A program made the translations under genes and the position numbers. From assembly GCA_030671985.1 (NCBI GenBank), contig DAOVHI010000075.1, forward strand, positions 1-7,163: a stretch of 7,163 bases of DNA, read 5' to 3'. Positions within the stretch are counted from its first letter, which is position 1. Every line of letters begins with the position of its first letter. Of this stretch, positions 1,901-7,163 are shown in pieces. The notes beneath the pieces were generated by a model. It saw only the letters and a program-made list of their open reading frames with translations. It had not been told where the DNA came from and made no database searches. The DNA comes from JAHJDO01 sp030671985 [NCBI: bacterium] (GTDB lineage Bacteria; JAHJDO01).

Positions 1901-2863
1901 CTACAGGTCGATATTGCTGTCTTTGTAGAGCATTTTATTATCAAACATAAAACTGCGGCCTGTCCACTTTTTGTCCGGGTCCTGAGACTTTTCTACCATT
2001 TCCTGAAAGCCCGATATCTTTGCATCCATATCATCCATGTAGTGAAGAATAACCGCTTCCAATACCTTGGGCTTCTTGGGTGATCCCCATTCATATTGTC
2101 CATGATGACTGAGAAGCATATGTTCGAGCAGCATTTCCAATTCCGCTGGGAACTGTGGAATCTCAGCTATCTTTGACTTTACCATTTGAGTTCCTATTAC
2201 GACATGACCTATCAACCTGCCTCTGTCTGTGTAATCAAAGGCATGCGAATACTCATACTCATATATCTTGCCAATATCATGTAAAATAGCGCCTGCCACG
2301 AGAAGGTCTTTGTTAATATTCTTATAATGTTTATCTATTTCCATGCACATATTGGTTACGGATAAAGTATGTTCCAGCAGTCCGCCAATATAGTAACTAT
2401 GCATTTTTACGGACGCCGGCGCTTTTTTAAATAATTTCCTGTATTCTTCCACTTCAAAGACCGCCTGCAACAGATTCTTGAGCCACTTATTTTGCATTCC
2501 CTCAATTATGTTGACAATTTGGTCAAACATCAAATCTATGTCTTTAGTAGCGGTTGGAAGAAATTCGTCAATATCTATTTTGTCCTGCGCCACCACTTGA
2601 ACCTGTTTAACGTTTATTTGCAGCTTATTCTGAAAACTTTCAACTATGCCGATAACTCTCACGAAATCATTGTCTTTGAATAACATGGATATTTCCTCTG
2701 CGTTATCCCAAATTCTTCCAATAATTTCTCCTGATTTATCTACAAGCTCAAATGCAAGATAAGATTTATTGTTTTTTGTTATTCTTACATGCTTATTTCT
2801 CACAATAAACACACTGTCAACTTTATCATCGGTCTTAAGTTTATTCACATATTGTTTAGCCAT
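1901..2863 (-). CDS. OB-fold/HD-domain phosphohydrolase, YhaM-type 3'-5' exoribonuclease
   Basis: The protein has 320 residues. An OB-fold nucleic-acid-binding domain lies at about 13-92. An HD domain covers about 150-290, with metal-binding candidates His155 and His165 (GLLEH), His195-Asp196 in AGAILHDIGK, His220, His248, His253-His254 in LSHHGQYEWGSP, and acidic residues in HYMDDMDAK (274-282). Order and motifs match the YhaM family, which degrades RNA, and in some reports ssDNA, from the 3' end in the cytoplasm using divalent metal ions. The start at 2863 is supported by AAGGAG 8 bases upstream. The gene overlaps the end of trpF by 8 bp (ATGGCTAA), so the two are coupled in translation. 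A link between RNA decay and tryptophan synthesis is not evident; the pairing may simply be shared transcription. Fold and family are secure, nuclease activity is inferred from the family. Confidence 0.9.
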   Translation of the reverse strand: MAKQYVNKLKTDDKVDSVFIVRNKHVRITKNNKSYLAFELVDKSGEIIGRIWDNAEEISMLFKDNDFVRVIGIVESFQNKLQINVKQVQVVAQDKIDIDEFLPTATKDIDLMFDQIVNIIEGMQNKWLKNLLQAVFEVEEYRKLFKKAPASVKMHSYYIGGLLEHTLSVTNMCMEIDKHYKNINKDLLVAGAILHDIGKIYEYEYSHAFDYTDRGRLIGHVVIGTQMVKSKIAEIPQFPAELEMLLEHMLLSHHGQYEWGSPKKPKVLEAVILHYMDDMDAKISGFQEMVEKSQDPDKKWTGRSFMFDNKMLYKDSNIDL

Positions 2864-3563
2864 TAGAAAAACTCCTTGTTATTTTTATCAACTCCATAAC
2901 CTTCTCAGGATCTTTTATTCCTTTTTCCTTTTCCACACCGCTTGCAACATCAATTCCGTATGGATTAACTTGATTTATAGCATCCCTGACGTTAGAAGGC
3001 TTTATTCCTCCCGCAAGAAACACAGATGCATCCAGATTTTCGGTAAGTTTAGCTACTGTATTCCAATCGGAAATTTTGCCCGTTCCACCATGTTGAACAC
3101 TATTGCCGGATTTATAAACCGTGTCAACAAGAATCACATCAGCCCCGCTATTCACATAAGTATTTATTCTTGTTCTCATATCCCCGATATTGATGTCAAC
3201 ATCCTGGGCAATGCCCTGTTCTGAAGACGGCAGATGTATGGATTTCCACACCACTACATCTGGAATTTTCGACTTTATCTCACAAACCAGTTCAGGACTT
3301 TCCTGACTAAGCAGTTGAAACGCATACGGCTTTAGTTTGTTATACACAATCTCAACTTCTTCAAACGTAGGCTGCCATAAAAGGATAACAACGGGTATTC
3401 TTGCCTTTGAGCATAAATTTTTCGCCTTTTTCATATCGACACTGCGTTTAGAAGCAGAAACATTGACCAATATCCCCGCGTAATCAGCGCCGGAAGAGGA
3501 AACCAGTTCTATATCTTTAAGATTTGTAATACCGCAAATCTTGATTTTAGGGGTTGCAAACAT
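2856..3563 (-). CDS. trpF: Phosphoribosylanthranilate isomerase, divergent and free-standing
   Basis: This is a 235-residue TIM barrel. Family marks in order are KICGIT (8-13) with the catalytic Cys10, SKRSV (39-43) at the phosphate or substrate arginine, VDT with the probable catalytic Asp147, GGTGKISDW (159-167), LAGGIKPSNV (183-192) and IDVASGVE (204-211). Family knowledge: TrpF turns N-(5'-phosphoribosyl)anthranilate into CdRP, the third step of tryptophan synthesis, in the cytoplasm. Oddities: the usual QLHG.E motif reads QLLSQE (83-88), losing the conserved His and Gly, and the usual GVFVN strand reads VILLW. No other trp gene is in view. The ATG at 3563 is the only sensible start, because an in-frame stop lies 9 bases upstream. 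It has no Shine-Dalgarno site; a strong promoter directly before it suggests a leaderless mRNA. Most likely a working TrpF, but a paralogue with altered specificity is possible. Confidence 0.87.
   Translation of the reverse strand: MFATPKIKICGITNLKDIELVSSSGADYAGILVNVSASKRSVDMKKAKNLCSKARIPVVILLWQPTFEEVEIVYNKLKPYAFQLLSQESPELVCEIKSKIPDVVVWKSIHLPSSEQGIAQDVDINIGDMRTRINTYVNSGADVILVDTVYKSGNSVQHGGTGKISDWNTVAKLTENLDASVFLAGGIKPSNVRDAINQVNPYGIDVASGVEKEKGIKDPEKVMELIKITRSFSNG
2872..2877 (-). promoter_or_regulatory. Ribosome binding site of the OB/HD gene
   Basis: AAGGAG on the minus strand lies 8 bases before the ATG at 2863, within the last codons of trpF. It fixes the start and supports translational coupling across the 8-bp overlap. 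Confidence 0.75.
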
Positions 3564-3568
3564 AGATT

Positions 3569-3598
3569 TTTATAGCAAATAGTTTTGTTACCTGTCAA
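3569..3598 (-). promoter_or_regulatory. Sigma70-type promoter of trpF and the OB/HD gene, probably leaderless
   Basis: On the minus strand the -35 is TTGACA (3598-3593, perfect consensus), the spacer is 18 bases and the -10 is TATAAA (3574-3569). Only five bases separate the -10 from the ATG at 3563, so the predicted transcript start is at or beside the A of the start codon. This agrees with the missing Shine-Dalgarno site. Confidence 0.72.
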
Positions 3599-3602
3599 GT
3601 TG

Positions 3603-3611
3603 TGGTAAAAT
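3603..3611 (+). promoter_or_regulatory. Extended -10 promoter of tRNA-Ser
   Basis: TGGTAAAAT is an extended -10 (TG-n-TAAAAT) that would start transcription near 3618, about nine bases before the mature tRNA. A weak -35-like TTGTTA lies at 3585-3590 with a short 15-base spacer. The region overlaps the divergent trpF promoter, so the two may compete for polymerase. Confidence 0.45.
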
Positions 3612-3626
3612 TATTGTAATTTAATT

Positions 3627-3720
3627 GGAGAGGTGGCTGAGCTCGGCTGAAAGCGGCAGACTCGAAATCTGTTGTCCTGATTTTTCGGGACCGGGGGTTC
3701 GAATCCCTCCCTCTCCGCCA
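3627..3720 (+). tRNA. tRNA-Ser (anticodon CGA, reads UCG), CCA encoded
   Basis: The 94-base gene folds as a class II tRNA. The acceptor stem GGAGAGG pairs perfectly with CCTCTCC, followed by discriminator G3717 and encoded CCA (3718-3720). The anticodon stem GCAGA/TCTGT closes the loop CTCGAAA with anticodon CGA at 3663-3665. A long variable arm has the stem GTCCTG/CGGGAC, as expected for serine tRNAs. The T arm is GGGGG-TTCGAAT-CCCTC. No terminator hairpin follows. Instead the last four bases, GCCA, are the first bases of the 64-bp repeat copied from the rsmD end, so the tRNA's original downstream DNA seems to have been replaced or interrupted. Confidence 0.96.
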
Positions 3721-3780
3721 GAATCGTGTCCCCGTATCTTTTTGATTTAATATGGCATAATTCTTTAATGTTTGAGCAAG
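3717..3780 (+). repeat. Left copy of 64-bp direct repeat (rsmD 3'-end fragment)
   Basis: This copy starts with the tRNA's terminal GCCA and ends with GAGCAAG. It matches 5152-5215 at 63 of 64 bases; the one difference is A3753 against G5188. On the minus strand it encodes the same residues as the RsmD C-terminus (CSNIKELC..., RYGDTILA), but here it is cut off from the rest of rsmD, so it is an rsmD fragment. Beyond 3780 similarity falls off quickly, leaving only scattered matches. Confidence 0.93.
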
Positions 3781-3798
3781 ATAGCGCGTTCTGGTGAG

Positions 3799-3951
3799 TT
3801 AGTGACAATAATGAACATCCTTATTGTTATTTAACGTCTTAAGTGAAAATAAGGCTTTCTCTTATTATCATTTAGGATGACTAGCTTTGTTTGTGGATAT
3901 AAATAACAATAAATATTTTCCTATTGACATTTAATGGCGTAAATGATAATA
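3799..3951. promoter_or_regulatory. Candidate operator array: six copies of a 12-bp motif before fic
   Basis: The motif TATTRTYATTTA occurs at 3822-3833 (+, TATTGTTATTTA), 3863-3874 (+, TATTATCATTTA), 3900-3911 (-, same as the first), 3922-3933 (+, TATTGACATTTA, one mismatch), 3940-3951 (-, same as the second) and 3799-3810 (-, TATTGTCACTAA, two mismatches). The pairs 3821-3833/3900-3912 and 3863-3874/3940-3951 are perfect inverted repeats of 13 and 12 bp. The last two sites face each other as CATTTA-N6-TAAATG between the -35 and -10 of the fic promoter, a typical place for a repressor. The binding protein is unknown; the winged helix of Fic itself is the nearest candidate. Confidence 0.6.
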
Positions 3952-3952
3952 T
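3924..3952 (+). promoter_or_regulatory. Strong sigma70-type promoter of fic
   Basis: TTGACA (3924-3929), a 17-base spacer and TAATAT (3947-3952), with an extended -10 TG at 3944-3945, make a near-ideal promoter. Transcription should start near 3959, giving a leader of about 48 bases. The -35 and -10 each lie inside one arm of the motif pair at 3922-3951, so a bound protein would block polymerase. Confidence 0.75.
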
Positions 3953-4006
3953 GTGTTATGGCTTGAAAAAATAGGTACAAATATTCCAAGGTGATAAAGG
4001 TGATAT

Positions 4007-5125
4007 ATGTTTAAAGCAGGAACTTATAAACAACAATATGAATATAAAAGTTTTTTACCTTCACTGATAAATGATGATTATCGATGGGAGGATCGAAAAA
4101 TTGTAGTTTTCTTGGAAGATGCTATGCGCTATCTGGGGGAGCTTAATGCTTATTCAACGCTAGTTCCTGACGTGGACTTTTTTATTCAAATGCATGTAGC
4201 GAAAGAAGCTACAACATCAAGCCGCATTGAAGGAACACGAACGAATATTGACGAAGTTGTCTTACCTGAAAATGAAATCAGTCCTGAAAAACGAGATGAC
4301 TGGACTGAGGTTCAAAATTATATCAAGGCAATGAATTTCGCTATCAATGAGCTTGATAAATTACCTTTATCGATGAGGCTGCTCAAAGAGACGCATAAGA
4401 GATTGCTCTCAGGTGTAAGGGGTCATCATAAACTTCCTGGAGAAGTAAGAAGAAGCCAAAACTGGATAGGCGGTTCAAGCTTAAAAGACGCTTTTTTCGT
4501 TCCGCCACATCACGAAGATTTGCCGAATTTATTAACAGACCTTGAAAAATTTTGGCACAATAAGAAAATCAATCTTCCCCACTTAATTCGGGTTGCGATC
4601 AGCCATTATCAATTTGAGACTATTCATCCTTTTTTGGACGGTAATGGCAGGACAGGACGACTTCTTATAACTTTACAATTAGTTGATATGGATATATTAA
4701 ACAAGCCTTGTCTTTATCTTTCAGATTTTTTTGAAAGAAATAAAGGGTCATATTATGATTCATTGAGTGTGGTAAGGGCTTCGAATAATCTTGACCAGTG
4801 GATAAAGTTTTTTCTTTCCGGAGTCATTGAAACAGCTAAAAATGGAAAGGAAACTTTAGAGGCTATTATTAAACTCAGAAAACAATATGATGACAAGATT
4901 ATAACTATGGGAAGAAAGTCTAAATCCGCTCAAAAACTGCTGCTATTCCTTTTTTCGCATCCTATTGCTTCTATCGGGCAGGTTTCAGATCATTTAGGAG
5001 TAGGATTTGCCGCGGGCGGAAGATTGATCGCAGATTTTCAAAGAGTCGGATTTTTAAAAGAAGTAACGGGTCTTTCAAGGAATAGATTGTTTGCCCTGTC
5101 AGAGTATTTATCGTTGTTTAAGTAG
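4007..5125 (+). CDS. Class II Fic protein AMP-transferase with C-terminal winged helix
   Basis: The protein has 372 residues, the size of the known Fic_N-Fic-winged-helix proteins such as Shewanella oneidensis Fic. The N-terminal domain (about 15-95) contains the inhibitory helix motif S71-S-R-I-E75-G76, matching (S/T)xxxE(G/N), so it is class II and self-inhibited. The substrate flap is [13 protein letters not shown] (155-167). The Fic core is complete: [12 protein letters not shown] at 207-218 with catalytic His207, Asp211, Asn213, Arg215 and Arg218. Residues about 305-372 form a winged helix ([11 protein letters not shown]). Family knowledge: such enzymes attach AMP from ATP to protein hydroxyls, and the inhibitory Glu (here E75) must move to allow it. 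Targets cannot be read from the sequence. The start is supported by AAGGTGAT just upstream, which occurs twice (3988-3995 and 3997-4004). No antitoxin gene is adjacent, as expected for class II. The tail overlaps the end of rsmD by 8 bp. Confidence 0.95.
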
Positions 5126-5687
5126 AGGAATGAGGCTTAGGTCCATAAATAGCCAGAATCGTGTCCCCGTATCTTTTTGATTTAATGTGGCATAATTCTT
5201 TAATGTTTGAGCAAGGCGGTGTGTTTCTTTTGGAATGCTCAATAACTAAGATCGCTTTGCTGTTCAGTATATCTTTAAGACGCGGATTATTTAAGATTTT
5301 TTTGGCTTCTTTTGTATCATACGGAGGATCCATTAAAACAATATCAAATTTCTTATTCCGATTGGCGAGAAAGTTTATAGTTTTGTACGCATCTCTCACA
5401 TAAGCGGAACCTTTGACTCCAAAATCAAACTTGTTTAAATTTTTATGGATAACACGCACGCATTTCGAATTGTTATCTATGAACACAACGTTTTTTGCTC
5501 CTCTGCTGAGCGCTTCTATTCCAAGACTACCTGAACCGGCAAAAAGATCAAGCATCTCCGCATCAATAACCTTATCACCCAGAATATTGAATAACGCCTC
5601 CTTAACAATTCCTAATGTGGGACGCGTTTTTCTATCTGGAATTGTTTCTAATACGGCTCCACTGTTTTTTCCTGCAATTACACGCAC
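5118..5687 (-). CDS. rsmD: 16S rRNA (guanine(966)-N(2))-methyltransferase
   Basis: The protein has 189 residues, normal for RsmD. It begins [10 protein letters not shown] like the family, has RPT at 22-24, the SAM-binding motif [16 protein letters not shown] (45-60), the acidic FIDNN (69-73) and the catalytic DPPY at 120-123. Family knowledge: it uses S-adenosylmethionine to methylate G966 of 16S rRNA during assembly of the 30S subunit. The start is GTG at 5687, overlapping the recG stop by one base (TAGTG), with AGGGTAGG upstream serving as RBS, so the two are coupled. The last part (159-179) is the 64-bp repeat, and the final ten residues after it ([10 protein letters not shown]) lie beyond the repeat, in the fic segment. 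The stop overlaps the tail of fic by 8 bp. The catalytic core is intact, so the gene should work despite the altered end. Confidence 0.94.
5152..5215 (+). repeat. Right copy of 64-bp direct repeat, inside rsmD
   Basis: This copy lies within the coding sequence of rsmD, covering codons for about residues 159-179. It is in the same orientation as the left copy at 3717-3780 and differs from it by one base. It is the edge where the fic segment meets the body of rsmD. Confidence 0.93.
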
Positions 5688-7163
5688 TATCCTACCCTTA
5701 CTAAATCAATCCTATGTTTAAAGCTCTGCAGAAAATCTCTCTTGATATGACGATTCTCTTCGGCCGAGAGTTCAGGATCAGATTTAATTATATTAGCGGC
5801 TTCTTTTCTGGCAATCTCCATTATATCTATATCTGAAATTATATTGCCGATTTTTAATTCAGGCAGACCGTGCTGCTTTGTTCCGAAGAATTCCCCCGGG
5901 CCTCTAAGTTCCAGATCCTCCTGCGCAATCATAAAGCCGTCCTGGGTTTGTGTCATAACTGTCATTCTCCTTTGCGCTTCAGGATTGCCTTGCGTACCAT
6001 GTAATATGCAATATGACTGGTCCTGCCCCCTGCCGATTCTTCCTCTAAGTTGATGAAGCTGTGAAAGCCCAAATCGTTCGGCATTCTCTATCAGCATTAC
6101 AGTTGCATTAGGGATGTCTATTCCGACTTCAATAATTGTTGTAGATACCAGTATATTGATCTTGTTTTCACGGAACTCTGTCATTACCTTTTCTTTATCC
6201 TCGTTTTTCATTTGCCCGTGTAAAAGCCCTACCCTTAGATTTGGAAATGCCTCTTTTTGGAAATGTTCAAAGATCTGAGTAGCTCCGATAACTGTCGAAG
6301 ACTTCATTATATTCAACTCCCCAATCAATGGAGAGACAACATATGCCTGCCGCCCTTTTTTTATCTCTTCTTTAATGAACGCATATATCCCCTGAAGCTG
6401 TGAATTTGAGACCAAATGTGTTGATACAGCGCCTCTTCCGGAAGGAAGTTCCCTGATCGTAGAAATATCCAAATCTCCATATACAGTGAGCGCAAGAGTT
6501 CTAGGTATAGGCGTAGCGGTCATTACCAAAACGTCGGGATTAAGCCCTTTTTTTCTTAACATGTTTCGCTGCAGCACACCAAAACGATGTTGTTCGTCTA
6601 TTACTACAAGCCCAAGTCTTTTAAATTTAATTTTCTCTTGAACCAACGTATGCGTTCCAATAATAATATCCGTAACTCCGCTTCGTATATTCTCTATAAT
6701 CTCCGTACGTGATTTTTGACCGGTACTGCCAATCAGCAGATCGATTTTTATCCCGATTGGAGCCAATGCTTCTGCCATATAAATATAATGCTGCTCTGCA
6801 AGTATCTCTGTCGGCGCCATTATGGCTCCCTGATAGCCGTTCTCAACACTGGTCAGTAGTGCAGCAATTGCAACAACGGTTTTTCCCGATCCTACTTCAC
6901 CCTGAATTAATCTGTTCATCTGCTTCTCAGACGTCATGTCCTGATTTATTTCATCTATGACTTTATGCTGTCCATTAGTCAGCTTGAATGGCAGGGCTTT
7001 GAGAAATTGCGCCAGCAGTCTACCCTTATTTTCGTGCTTTATACCAAGCTGAGGCTCTGAAATAGAGGCTTTTTTCGAGGTAATTCCTAATTGCAGTAAA
7101 AGGAATTCATCAAAAACAATTCTTCTATAAGCTGATTCCCTATCCTTCAAAGTCTTTGGAAAA
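5687..7163 (-). CDS. recG: ATP-dependent DNA helicase RecG, C-terminal part (5' end outside window)
   Basis: 491 residues are visible, about two thirds of a usual RecG of near 690. The frame stays open to the window edge and reads FPKTLKDRESAYRRI there, which matches the RecG segment before the helicase domains; the TTG at 7150 is therefore not a start. Counting from codon 7150, motifs are LTNGQ (57-61), Walker A GEVGSGKT (84-91), DEQH (185-188), TATPIPRTLA (211-220), STTIIEVGIDIPNA (336-349), and QLHQLRGRIGRG (364-375) near the arginine finger. The wedge domain is upstream and not seen. Family knowledge: RecG remodels stalled replication forks, branch-migrates Holliday junctions and removes R-loops. 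It lies directly before rsmD and shares its last base with the rsmD start; recG-rsmD is a common bacterial neighbourhood. Confidence 0.96.
   Translation of the reverse strand, partial: FPKTLKDRESAYRRIVFDEFLLLQLGITSKKASISEPQLGIKHENKGRLLAQFLKALPFKLTNGQHKVIDEINQDMTSEKQMNRLIQGEVGSGKTVVAIAALLTSVENGYQGAIMAPTEILAEQHYIYMAEALAPIGIKIDLLIGSTGQKSRTEIIENIRSGVTDIIIGTHTLVQEKIKFKRLGLVVIDEQHRFGVLQRNMLRKKGLNPDVLVMTATPIPRTLALTVYGDLDISTIRELPSGRGAVSTHLVSNSQLQGIYAFIKEEIKKGRQAYVVSPLIGELNIMKSSTVIGATQIFEHFQKEAFPNLRVGLLHGQMKNEDKEKVMTEFRENKINILVSTTIIEVGIDIPNATVMLIENAERFGLSQLHQLRGRIGRGQDQSYCILHGTQGNPEAQRRMTVMTQTQDGFMIAQEDLELRGPGEFFGTKQHGLPELKIGNIISDIDIMEIARKEAANIIKSDPELSAEENRHIKRDFLQSFKHRIDLVRVG

Follow-up and report, generated by a model that had tools for sequence, protein, structure and literature searches.

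A SoFic-like gene between direct repeats of the rsmD gene end in an uncultured bacterial genus: a possible variant of insertion with long target duplication

Related systems and the locus under study

The entry of single genes into chromosomes without an integrase or transposase is poorly understood. Here we consider a solitary fic gene enclosed by direct repeats of the 3' end of rsmD in the bacterium JAHJDO01 sp030671985; the stretch analysed, one entire contig of 7,163 b (DAOVHI010000075.1), is referred to below as the window. The closest described system is 'insertion with long target duplication', which, as summarized in passages of later papers, was reported from Helicobacter pylori, where restriction-modification genes are often involved (Nobusato et al., 2000, Gene 259:99, through PMC1643837, PMC3031569, and PMC3154945; also cited in PMC2654758 and PMC2869330). 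According to one of these passages, transposed Arabidopsis genes are associated with flanking repeats longer than 30 bp (18/126 vs. 2/102; PMC2869330). Direct repeats of 8-514 bp are reported for insertions of IS1549 and IS1634, for which, as stated in the excerpted section, no mechanistic model was proposed at the time (PMC2266710).

As far as the summaries of the H. pylori system reach, the window shares with it a gene of the defense or addiction type located between long, variable direct repeats, the repeated target being present once in relatives. It differs in that its cargo is a solitary SoFic-like gene and not a restriction-modification system, in that its host belongs to an uncultured genus and not to Helicobacter, and in that its left outer flank is different. 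Because this flank differs from that of the congeners, we do not claim proven membership, and we regard the window as a variant that appears to work like an insertion with long target duplication. The window shares long direct repeats with IS1634 and IS1549, which, as excerpted (PMC2266710), are insertion sequences with a transposase and defined ends, whereas the window insert has neither a transposase nor a clear terminal inverted repeat. Among the best-matching papers listed in our literature search, none linked Fic with target duplication. For the locus as a whole we favor, at a probability of roughly 50%, an origin in two steps: insertion of fic with a long target duplication, followed by a deletion that joined a tRNA gene to the left copy of the rsmD end.

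The Fic protein of the window resembles SoFic (Shewanella oneidensis Fic, PDB 3eqx) in domain order, Fic motif, and length, its motif matching the Fic consensus and occurring together with a Fic_N domain. It scores 385 bits against the PADLOC SoFic model (E 7e-116), yet its similarity to the SoFic structure is weak (phmmer, 107 bits, E 8e-30, aligned along most of the length) and the NCBIfam SoFic equivalog cut-off is missed by far (169 of 550 bits). Because it lies below that cut-off, we name the protein SoFic-like and not SoFic, and the gene is a SoFic-like candidate defense gene.

Genomic islands at tRNA 3' ends carry a tyrosine integrase. The window insert resembles such islands in lying beside a tRNA end and between direct repeats, and differs from them in that its repeat is gene-end DNA, not a tRNA end, and in that the main open reading frames (ORFs) of the window include no integrase.

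The insert, the two copies of the rsmD end, and the tRNA junction

The window was compared with the genomes that represent its phylum in our set, five in number and all from one genus: the window's own draft genome (G000; 1.25 Mb, 92% complete, 152 contigs) and four congeners (G001-G004). A preliminary description, made from the letters of the window alone, had reported a 64-bp direct repeat with sharp edges and an interior holding only fic and its control region; we recovered the same coordinates and identity (Table 1). The two copies are identical at 63 of 64 positions (BLAST E 4e-28 between the fic flanks), similarity ends abruptly on either side of both copies, and fic and its upstream region lie between them. 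A search for additional copies in the draft genome, proposed in the same description, returned just these two at E up to 0.001. In all four congeners (G001 being 62% complete) the rsmD end is single and no close fic is present, which bears out the proposal that fic is an addition and is the result that the suggested comparison of neighborhoods gave.

Table 1. Features of the window; coordinates are those of the whole 7,163-b stretch.
Feature	Coordinates	Strand	Basis
trpF; in G002 and G003 on a different contig from tRNA-Ser	2856..3563	-	PF00697
tRNA-Ser(CGA), forming the left junction at its 3' end	3627..3720	+	ARAGORN; Rfam RF00005
GCC common to tRNA end and rsmD fragment, putative deletion microhomology	3717..3719		congener tRNA ends vs. 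rsmD ends
Left copy, truncated rsmD 3' fragment without the end of the AIY codons	3717..3780	-	63/64 to right copy; translation
Insert left end: region upstream of fic, containing promoter-like and inverted-repeat motifs	3781..4006	+	weak similarity to upstream regions of homologs; inverted repeat I4
fic, SoFic-like, with Fic_N and Fic domains	4007..5125	+	PF13784, PF02661; PADLOC SoFic; PDB 3eqx
rsmD, intact; stop overlaps fic stop	5118..5687	-	PF03602; TIGR00095 above cut-off
Insert right end, 19 bases past the fic stop	5126..5144	+	without similarity to congener DNA downstream of rsmD
Native rsmD 3' end: ATAAATA and right 64-bp copy (5152-5215)	5145..5215	-	four-congener alignment; RsmD C-termini
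recG, native rsmD neighbor, runs off the contig	5687..7162	-	PF19833, DEAD, helicase C; congener synteny

The right copy is the true end of rsmD and the left an isolated fragment, as had been proposed: in the alignment with the four congeners and their RsmD C-termini, homology extends leftward from the right copy across ATAAATA (5145-5151), which is part of the conserved RsmD codons AIY (SIY in G004) and is absent from the left copy. RsmD ends in all five genomes with this AIY/SIY motif and a variable tail, and translation of the left fragment runs ...GDTILA and then into the antisense of the tRNA. By comparison with the congener C-termini, the last eight RsmD codons (GPKPHSST), beyond AIY, derive from the insert, so the earlier suggestion that one side rebuilds rsmD applies to this live tail. 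The lone mismatch between the copies is a synonymous change in a His codon, derived, in the live right copy; at this position the left copy has the same base as all four congeners. The left copy is 84-88% identical to the congeners (over 64 bases in G001-G003 and 49 in G004), and the substitutions specific to the species, as seen in the four-congener alignment, are present in both copies alike. Because both copies carry these substitutions and the left copy is 12-16% divergent from the congeners, the duplication of the rsmD end is, by this alignment, recent and lineage-specific.

The insert comprises 1,364 bp (3781-5144), including about 230 bp upstream of fic. On the fic strand it contains no ORF of at least 60 amino acids (aa) besides fic, and no transposase; the seven main ORFs of the window include no integrase, in line with the preliminary description of an insert without its own. 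Its termini form no clear inverted repeat, the best terminal match being 8 of 20. Among the best 80 of 580 matches, the nearest relatives of the Fic protein are from Candidatus Scalindua (81% identity) and an Acidobacteria metagenome-assembled genome (79%), while the closest match in the congeners is 35% identical (G002) and G003 has none. Since the nearest relatives lie outside the genus and the best congener match reaches 35%, fic was probably acquired laterally. Its upstream region weakly resembles (E 1e-4 among the loci compared) that of the Scalindua and Acidobacteria homologs.

Two observations concern these relatives. The upstream region of fic contains an inverted motif, TTATTATCATTTA / TAAATGATAATA (3862-3874 and 3940-3951), which in the Scalindua homolog forms one compact palindrome (L121, 3719-3759), perhaps an operator. 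Close fic relatives are also found within apparent type I restriction-modification loci, in the order hsdR-fic-hsdM in Candidatus Scalindua (L121, 802-9114) and tRNA-Gln-fic-hsdM-hsdS elsewhere (L141, 3681-8776), the hsd names at both loci being given from reading the ORF sequences.

At the other end of the arrangement, the left copy begins within the final bases of tRNA-Ser(CGA). In G001, G002, and G003 this gene ends ...CTCTCCGCC, followed by TTG or TTA, which is why we regard GCC as common to the tRNA end and the rsmD fragment; G004 gave just 72-73% matches to the tRNA gene. In the window (3717-3720), the A of the rsmD fragment completes an encoded CCA of tRNA-Ser(CGA), whereas the gene has no CCA in G001, G002, and G003.

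The right outer flank of the window continues as in the congeners, and the left outer flank, tRNA-Ser, is unlike any congener's rsmD neighbor. Downstream of rsmD lie pilT in G003, a 474-477-aa gene in G001 and G002 (the G001 copy gave no Pfam match), and a 157-aa ORF in G004; a pilT-like gene is found within about 5 kb past rsmD in all four congeners, immediately adjacent in G003 alone. In the two congeners with both genes on one contig, tRNA-Ser is convergent with rsmD, as in the window, and is separated from it by 22.5 kb (G003) or 29 kb (G002) of mostly type IV pilus genes and some regulators; Pfam confirmed seven of the G003 ORFs in this interval (three T2SSE, T2SSF, Secretin, PilM, and N_methyl). 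When the G003 pilus region was compared with the G000 draft, no close copy was found there: besides rsmD, the tRNA genes, and the DNA beyond the tRNA, the matches had 64-77% identity, or up to 88% across at most 47 bases. That the pilus region has been lost from the window's lineage is strongly, although not finally, indicated, the draft being 8% incomplete.

The favored two-step origin would connect these findings as follows. A SoFic-like gene, accompanied by about 230 bp of its upstream DNA, would have entered just behind the last conserved rsmD codon, and at least 71 bp at the end of rsmD (5145-5215) would have been duplicated in the process. The insert would thereby have come to lie between direct repeats, the live rsmD retaining its conserved end and gaining its last eight codons from the insert. 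A later deletion would then have taken out the type IV pilus region (22-29 kb) that lies between tRNA-Ser and rsmD in congeners and joined the tRNA 3' end, at GCC, to the redundant left rsmD fragment, of which 64 bp remained. From such a course it would follow that the AIY codons are complete at the right copy and incomplete at the left, that the tRNA marks the limit of the left copy, and that rsmD is intact. We infer the order of the events, as well as the occurrence of insertion and duplication as a single event.

Comparable arrangements in the genus and at other loci

A similar arrangement within the genus supports the insertion step. In G003, a DUF4143 ATPase gene, which PADLOC assigns to the defense candidate PDC-S01, lies between two 177-bp copies (95% identical) of the start of an amidohydrolase-like gene; at the left copy the upstream region is kept and the gene is truncated, and the right copy continues into a long ORF. 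The corresponding site in G002 is uninterrupted: positions 1441-1677 match the left copy together with the adjoining 60 bases of the G003 left flank, positions 1501-2812 match the right copy and gene, and both outer flanks in the pair continue as in the empty site. By this comparison, 1,367 bp were inserted in G003 and 177 bp of the target were duplicated. The amidohydrolase-like gene had no match in G000, G001, and G004.

A scan of 594 kb of DNA from the genus for further candidates gave 17 rows (16 direct, one inverted), of which six were kept (the window, L211, L291, L296, L303, and L317). Six were dropped as pilus paralogs, judged mostly from ORF text (L281, three rows; L048; the direct row of L049; L051); the others dropped were a dispersed palindrome (L280), two rows of L305, L312 (short gap, 73%), and the inverted row of L049. 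Among those kept are a RelE/RelB module upstream of thiE (L291; 1.08-kb insert, 77-bp repeat; RelB model just below cut-off) and an ORF of 476 aa that precedes a flippase-like gene (L296; 1.55-kb insert, 58-bp repeat; match to a glycosyltransferase-like model, under its cut-off); no uninterrupted counterpart of either was found in the genus DNA already sampled, where alone it was sought. A uracil-methyltransferase gene occurs at the fmt end in both G000 (L211; 89 bp, with one further ORF) and G003 (L317; 95 bp), and because it is present in both, this arrangement is old; the search for an uninterrupted site for L211 returned L317 alone, with the same arrangement. At the termini of the inserts no clear inverted repeats were seen: RelE/RelB scored 13 of 20 and five others 8-11 of 20, values obtained without a shuffle control. 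Near two of these loci, L211 contains at 8658-8743 a dispersed repeat, up to about 85 bp long, matching eight other sampled stretches of G000 and G003, and in L280 (6782-7282) an IS200-like transposase (Y1_Tnp) adjoins a 31-bp palindromic repeat with several copies.

Flanking repeats were also counted at Fic loci in general, drawn from the best 80 of 580 matches and from sets of 25, 15, and 30 loci. The statistics are exploratory and the sampling unequal and capped: the window is itself among the 14 and 15 positives given below, near-identical viral records (L100/L101 and L108/L109) were counted apart, and L215 is the same place as L035. With full 600-b flanks, direct repeats were found at 14 and an inverted repeat at one of 105 Fic loci, compared with one direct and two inverted at 89 other ORFs in the same loci (one-sided Fisher p = 0.001 vs. 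Fic); for most loci of the 80-locus set this count used a standard fic end, not the exact one. Where the flanks reached 300 b or more, a direct repeat was present at 11/74, 2/15, and 2/24 loci in three Fic sets, the 15-locus set being not strand-corrected and some of its ORF ends wrong; pooled, the Fic sets give 15/113, against 1/115 for pooled controls (p = 0.00015). The repeats vary in sequence and length, some being fragments of neighboring genes or a tRNA end and others intergenic, and a search of viral contigs for the junction pattern gave 0 matches. In a family search across the same 289 genomes, flanking direct repeats were present at 3/26 Fic_N, 3/26 DUF4143, and 0/26 RsmD loci (26 each of 30, 30, and 29 loci), the DUF4143 rate differing from the pooled controls (1/115) at p = 0.02. 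Because the rates of Fic_N and DUF4143 are equal, the excess is not special to Fic, and a Fic-specific mobility was rejected.

Fic loci also lie near tRNA ends. A same-strand tRNA ends within 500 bp upstream at 7/107 Fic loci and an opposite-strand tRNA at one; downstream of fic, one locus has a same-strand and one an opposite-strand tRNA. In the family sets, a same-strand upstream tRNA was found at 1/26 Fic_N, 0/25 DUF4143, and 0/27 RsmD loci. At the seven loci (L033, L129, L141, L173, L188, L191, and L193), the tRNA 3' end lies 62-461 bp upstream of fic. Apart from the window, six of these tRNA loci were examined, and the tRNA end is repeated at L129 alone, where tRNA-Met, fic, a 209-aa ORF without a Pfam match, and a 55-bp, 93% identical copy of the tRNA end follow one another (3676-6115) as a mini-island in which no integrase was noticed.

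Taken more widely, solitary defense or addiction genes (SoFic-like Fic, DUF4143 ATPases, RelE/RelB) might spread across many phyla through one recombinase-free route, in which a single gene inserts at a gene boundary, 50-300 bp of the target are copied, and the copy keeps the neighbor intact. We offer this generalization tentatively and consider it doubtful. The window, the filled and uninterrupted pair in the genus, and the excess at Fic and DUF4143 loci suggest that the signature marks other defense genes in other phyla; if so, pairs of genomes could be screened for it automatically, and repair-based models could be tested against enzyme-based ones with the help of the breakpoints.

Weighing of the explanations

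Several points weigh against an insertion with target duplication followed by deletion. The left flank is a tRNA and not a congener neighbor, so a second event must be assumed, and the window's own empty rsmD site is not among the genomes compared, which are congeners and include none of the same species. Flanking repeats are missing at 98 of the 113 Fic loci, and at L120, L149, and L168 both copies are orphan fragments with no intact host gene visible. The tendency of Fic homologs to lie at tRNA ends could mean that the tRNA, and not rsmD, was the target, and at L118 there is overlap between the left copy and the end of an ORF that, on our reading, resembles a tyrosine recombinase. In addition, two other courses would give a sequence identical to that of the window: one repair event in which 64 bp were inserted from a template, and a tandem duplication followed by deletion. 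In the former, which we consider unlikely, fic already stood beside rsmD without a repeat; after a break with loss of the pilus region, repair joined the tRNA-Ser end to the fic side with a 64-bp copy of the rsmD end as filler, entering at GCC. The GCC at the left junction, the lack of a close copy of the 22-29 kb region, and a filler source 1.4 kb away would fit such a repair, as would a second G000 contig, C122, which is likewise scrambled relative to G003; however, the recurring direct repeats around Fic, DUF4143, and RelE/RelB genes would be left unexplained, as would the DUF4143 case with its uninterrupted G002 site. The preliminary description had itself named a recombination or deletion scar among its possibilities, and this view holds insofar as the left edge coincides with the loss of the pilus region, whereas as a whole explanation we prefer the two-step insertion. 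A tandem duplication, in which a 1,435-bp unit (3781-5215, fic and the rsmD end) was doubled and a deletion from the tRNA into the first unit took its fic together with the pilus region and left its last 64 bp, fits the sequence exactly, and the swap without inversion of two window blocks (654-1661 and 1911-3613) is what duplication with loss would give. We nevertheless judge it quite unlikely: it requires fic to have been in place already, and since no repeat of the upstream region precedes the second copy in the G003 DUF4143 case, that case is more simply read as an insertion with duplication.

The interpretation first given to the repeat, that of an att-bounded site, fared less well, and we leave it a slim chance. 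It would make fic a non-autonomous cassette moved by a recombinase acting in trans, with the 64 bp as attachment sites (attL/attR) at the end of rsmD or tRNA-Ser, in keeping with the direct repeats, the rebuilt gene end, and the adjacent tRNA. L129, with fic and one ORF between the tRNA-Met end and its copy, the seven loci with upstream tRNA ends, tyrosine-recombinase-like motifs in 3/120 Fic loci (L106, L113, and L185, by a crude motif scan), and the integrase-like ORF beside fic at L118 point in the same direction. Yet the seven main ORFs of the window, to which the search for a recombinase was confined, include none, the genome holds two copies of the repeat and no core recurs between insertions, and the repeat shares with the tRNA GCC(A) alone. 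The repeats at other Fic loci are, by inspection, unlike in sequence and length, similar duplications surround DUF4143 and RelE/RelB genes, and a literature search judged by title did not find rsmD as an attachment site. An assembly or binning artefact, with the contig chimeric at one junction, is very improbable. The draft is indeed in 152 contigs, the window is a whole contig with several synteny breaks, and another G000 contig (C8) starts inside the gene that adjoins tRNA-Ser in G003; on the other hand, the overlap at the left junction is of 3 bases, on which, by our reasoning, an assembler could not make a join by itself, the matches of C122 to G003 are likewise in pieces that come from three contigs, and the species' own substitutions are found in both rsmD copies.

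Three additional candidates were rejected: a target duplication at a pre-existing tRNA-rsmD fusion, in which the insert would need to recreate ATAAATA by chance; an integron cassette, by eye from the repeat sequences; and an IS-like insertion, no terminal inverted repeats being clear.

Farther to the left, the join of trpF and the tRNA near 3613-3626 is a separate rearrangement of the lineage. The two swapped blocks carry a Gfo/Idh gene (654-1661) and trpF with an HD-domain gene (1911-3613), and they are exchanged, not inverted, with respect to G002 and G003, where the equivalents of window positions 3613 and 654 almost adjoin; the exchange looks like a tandem duplication with loss.

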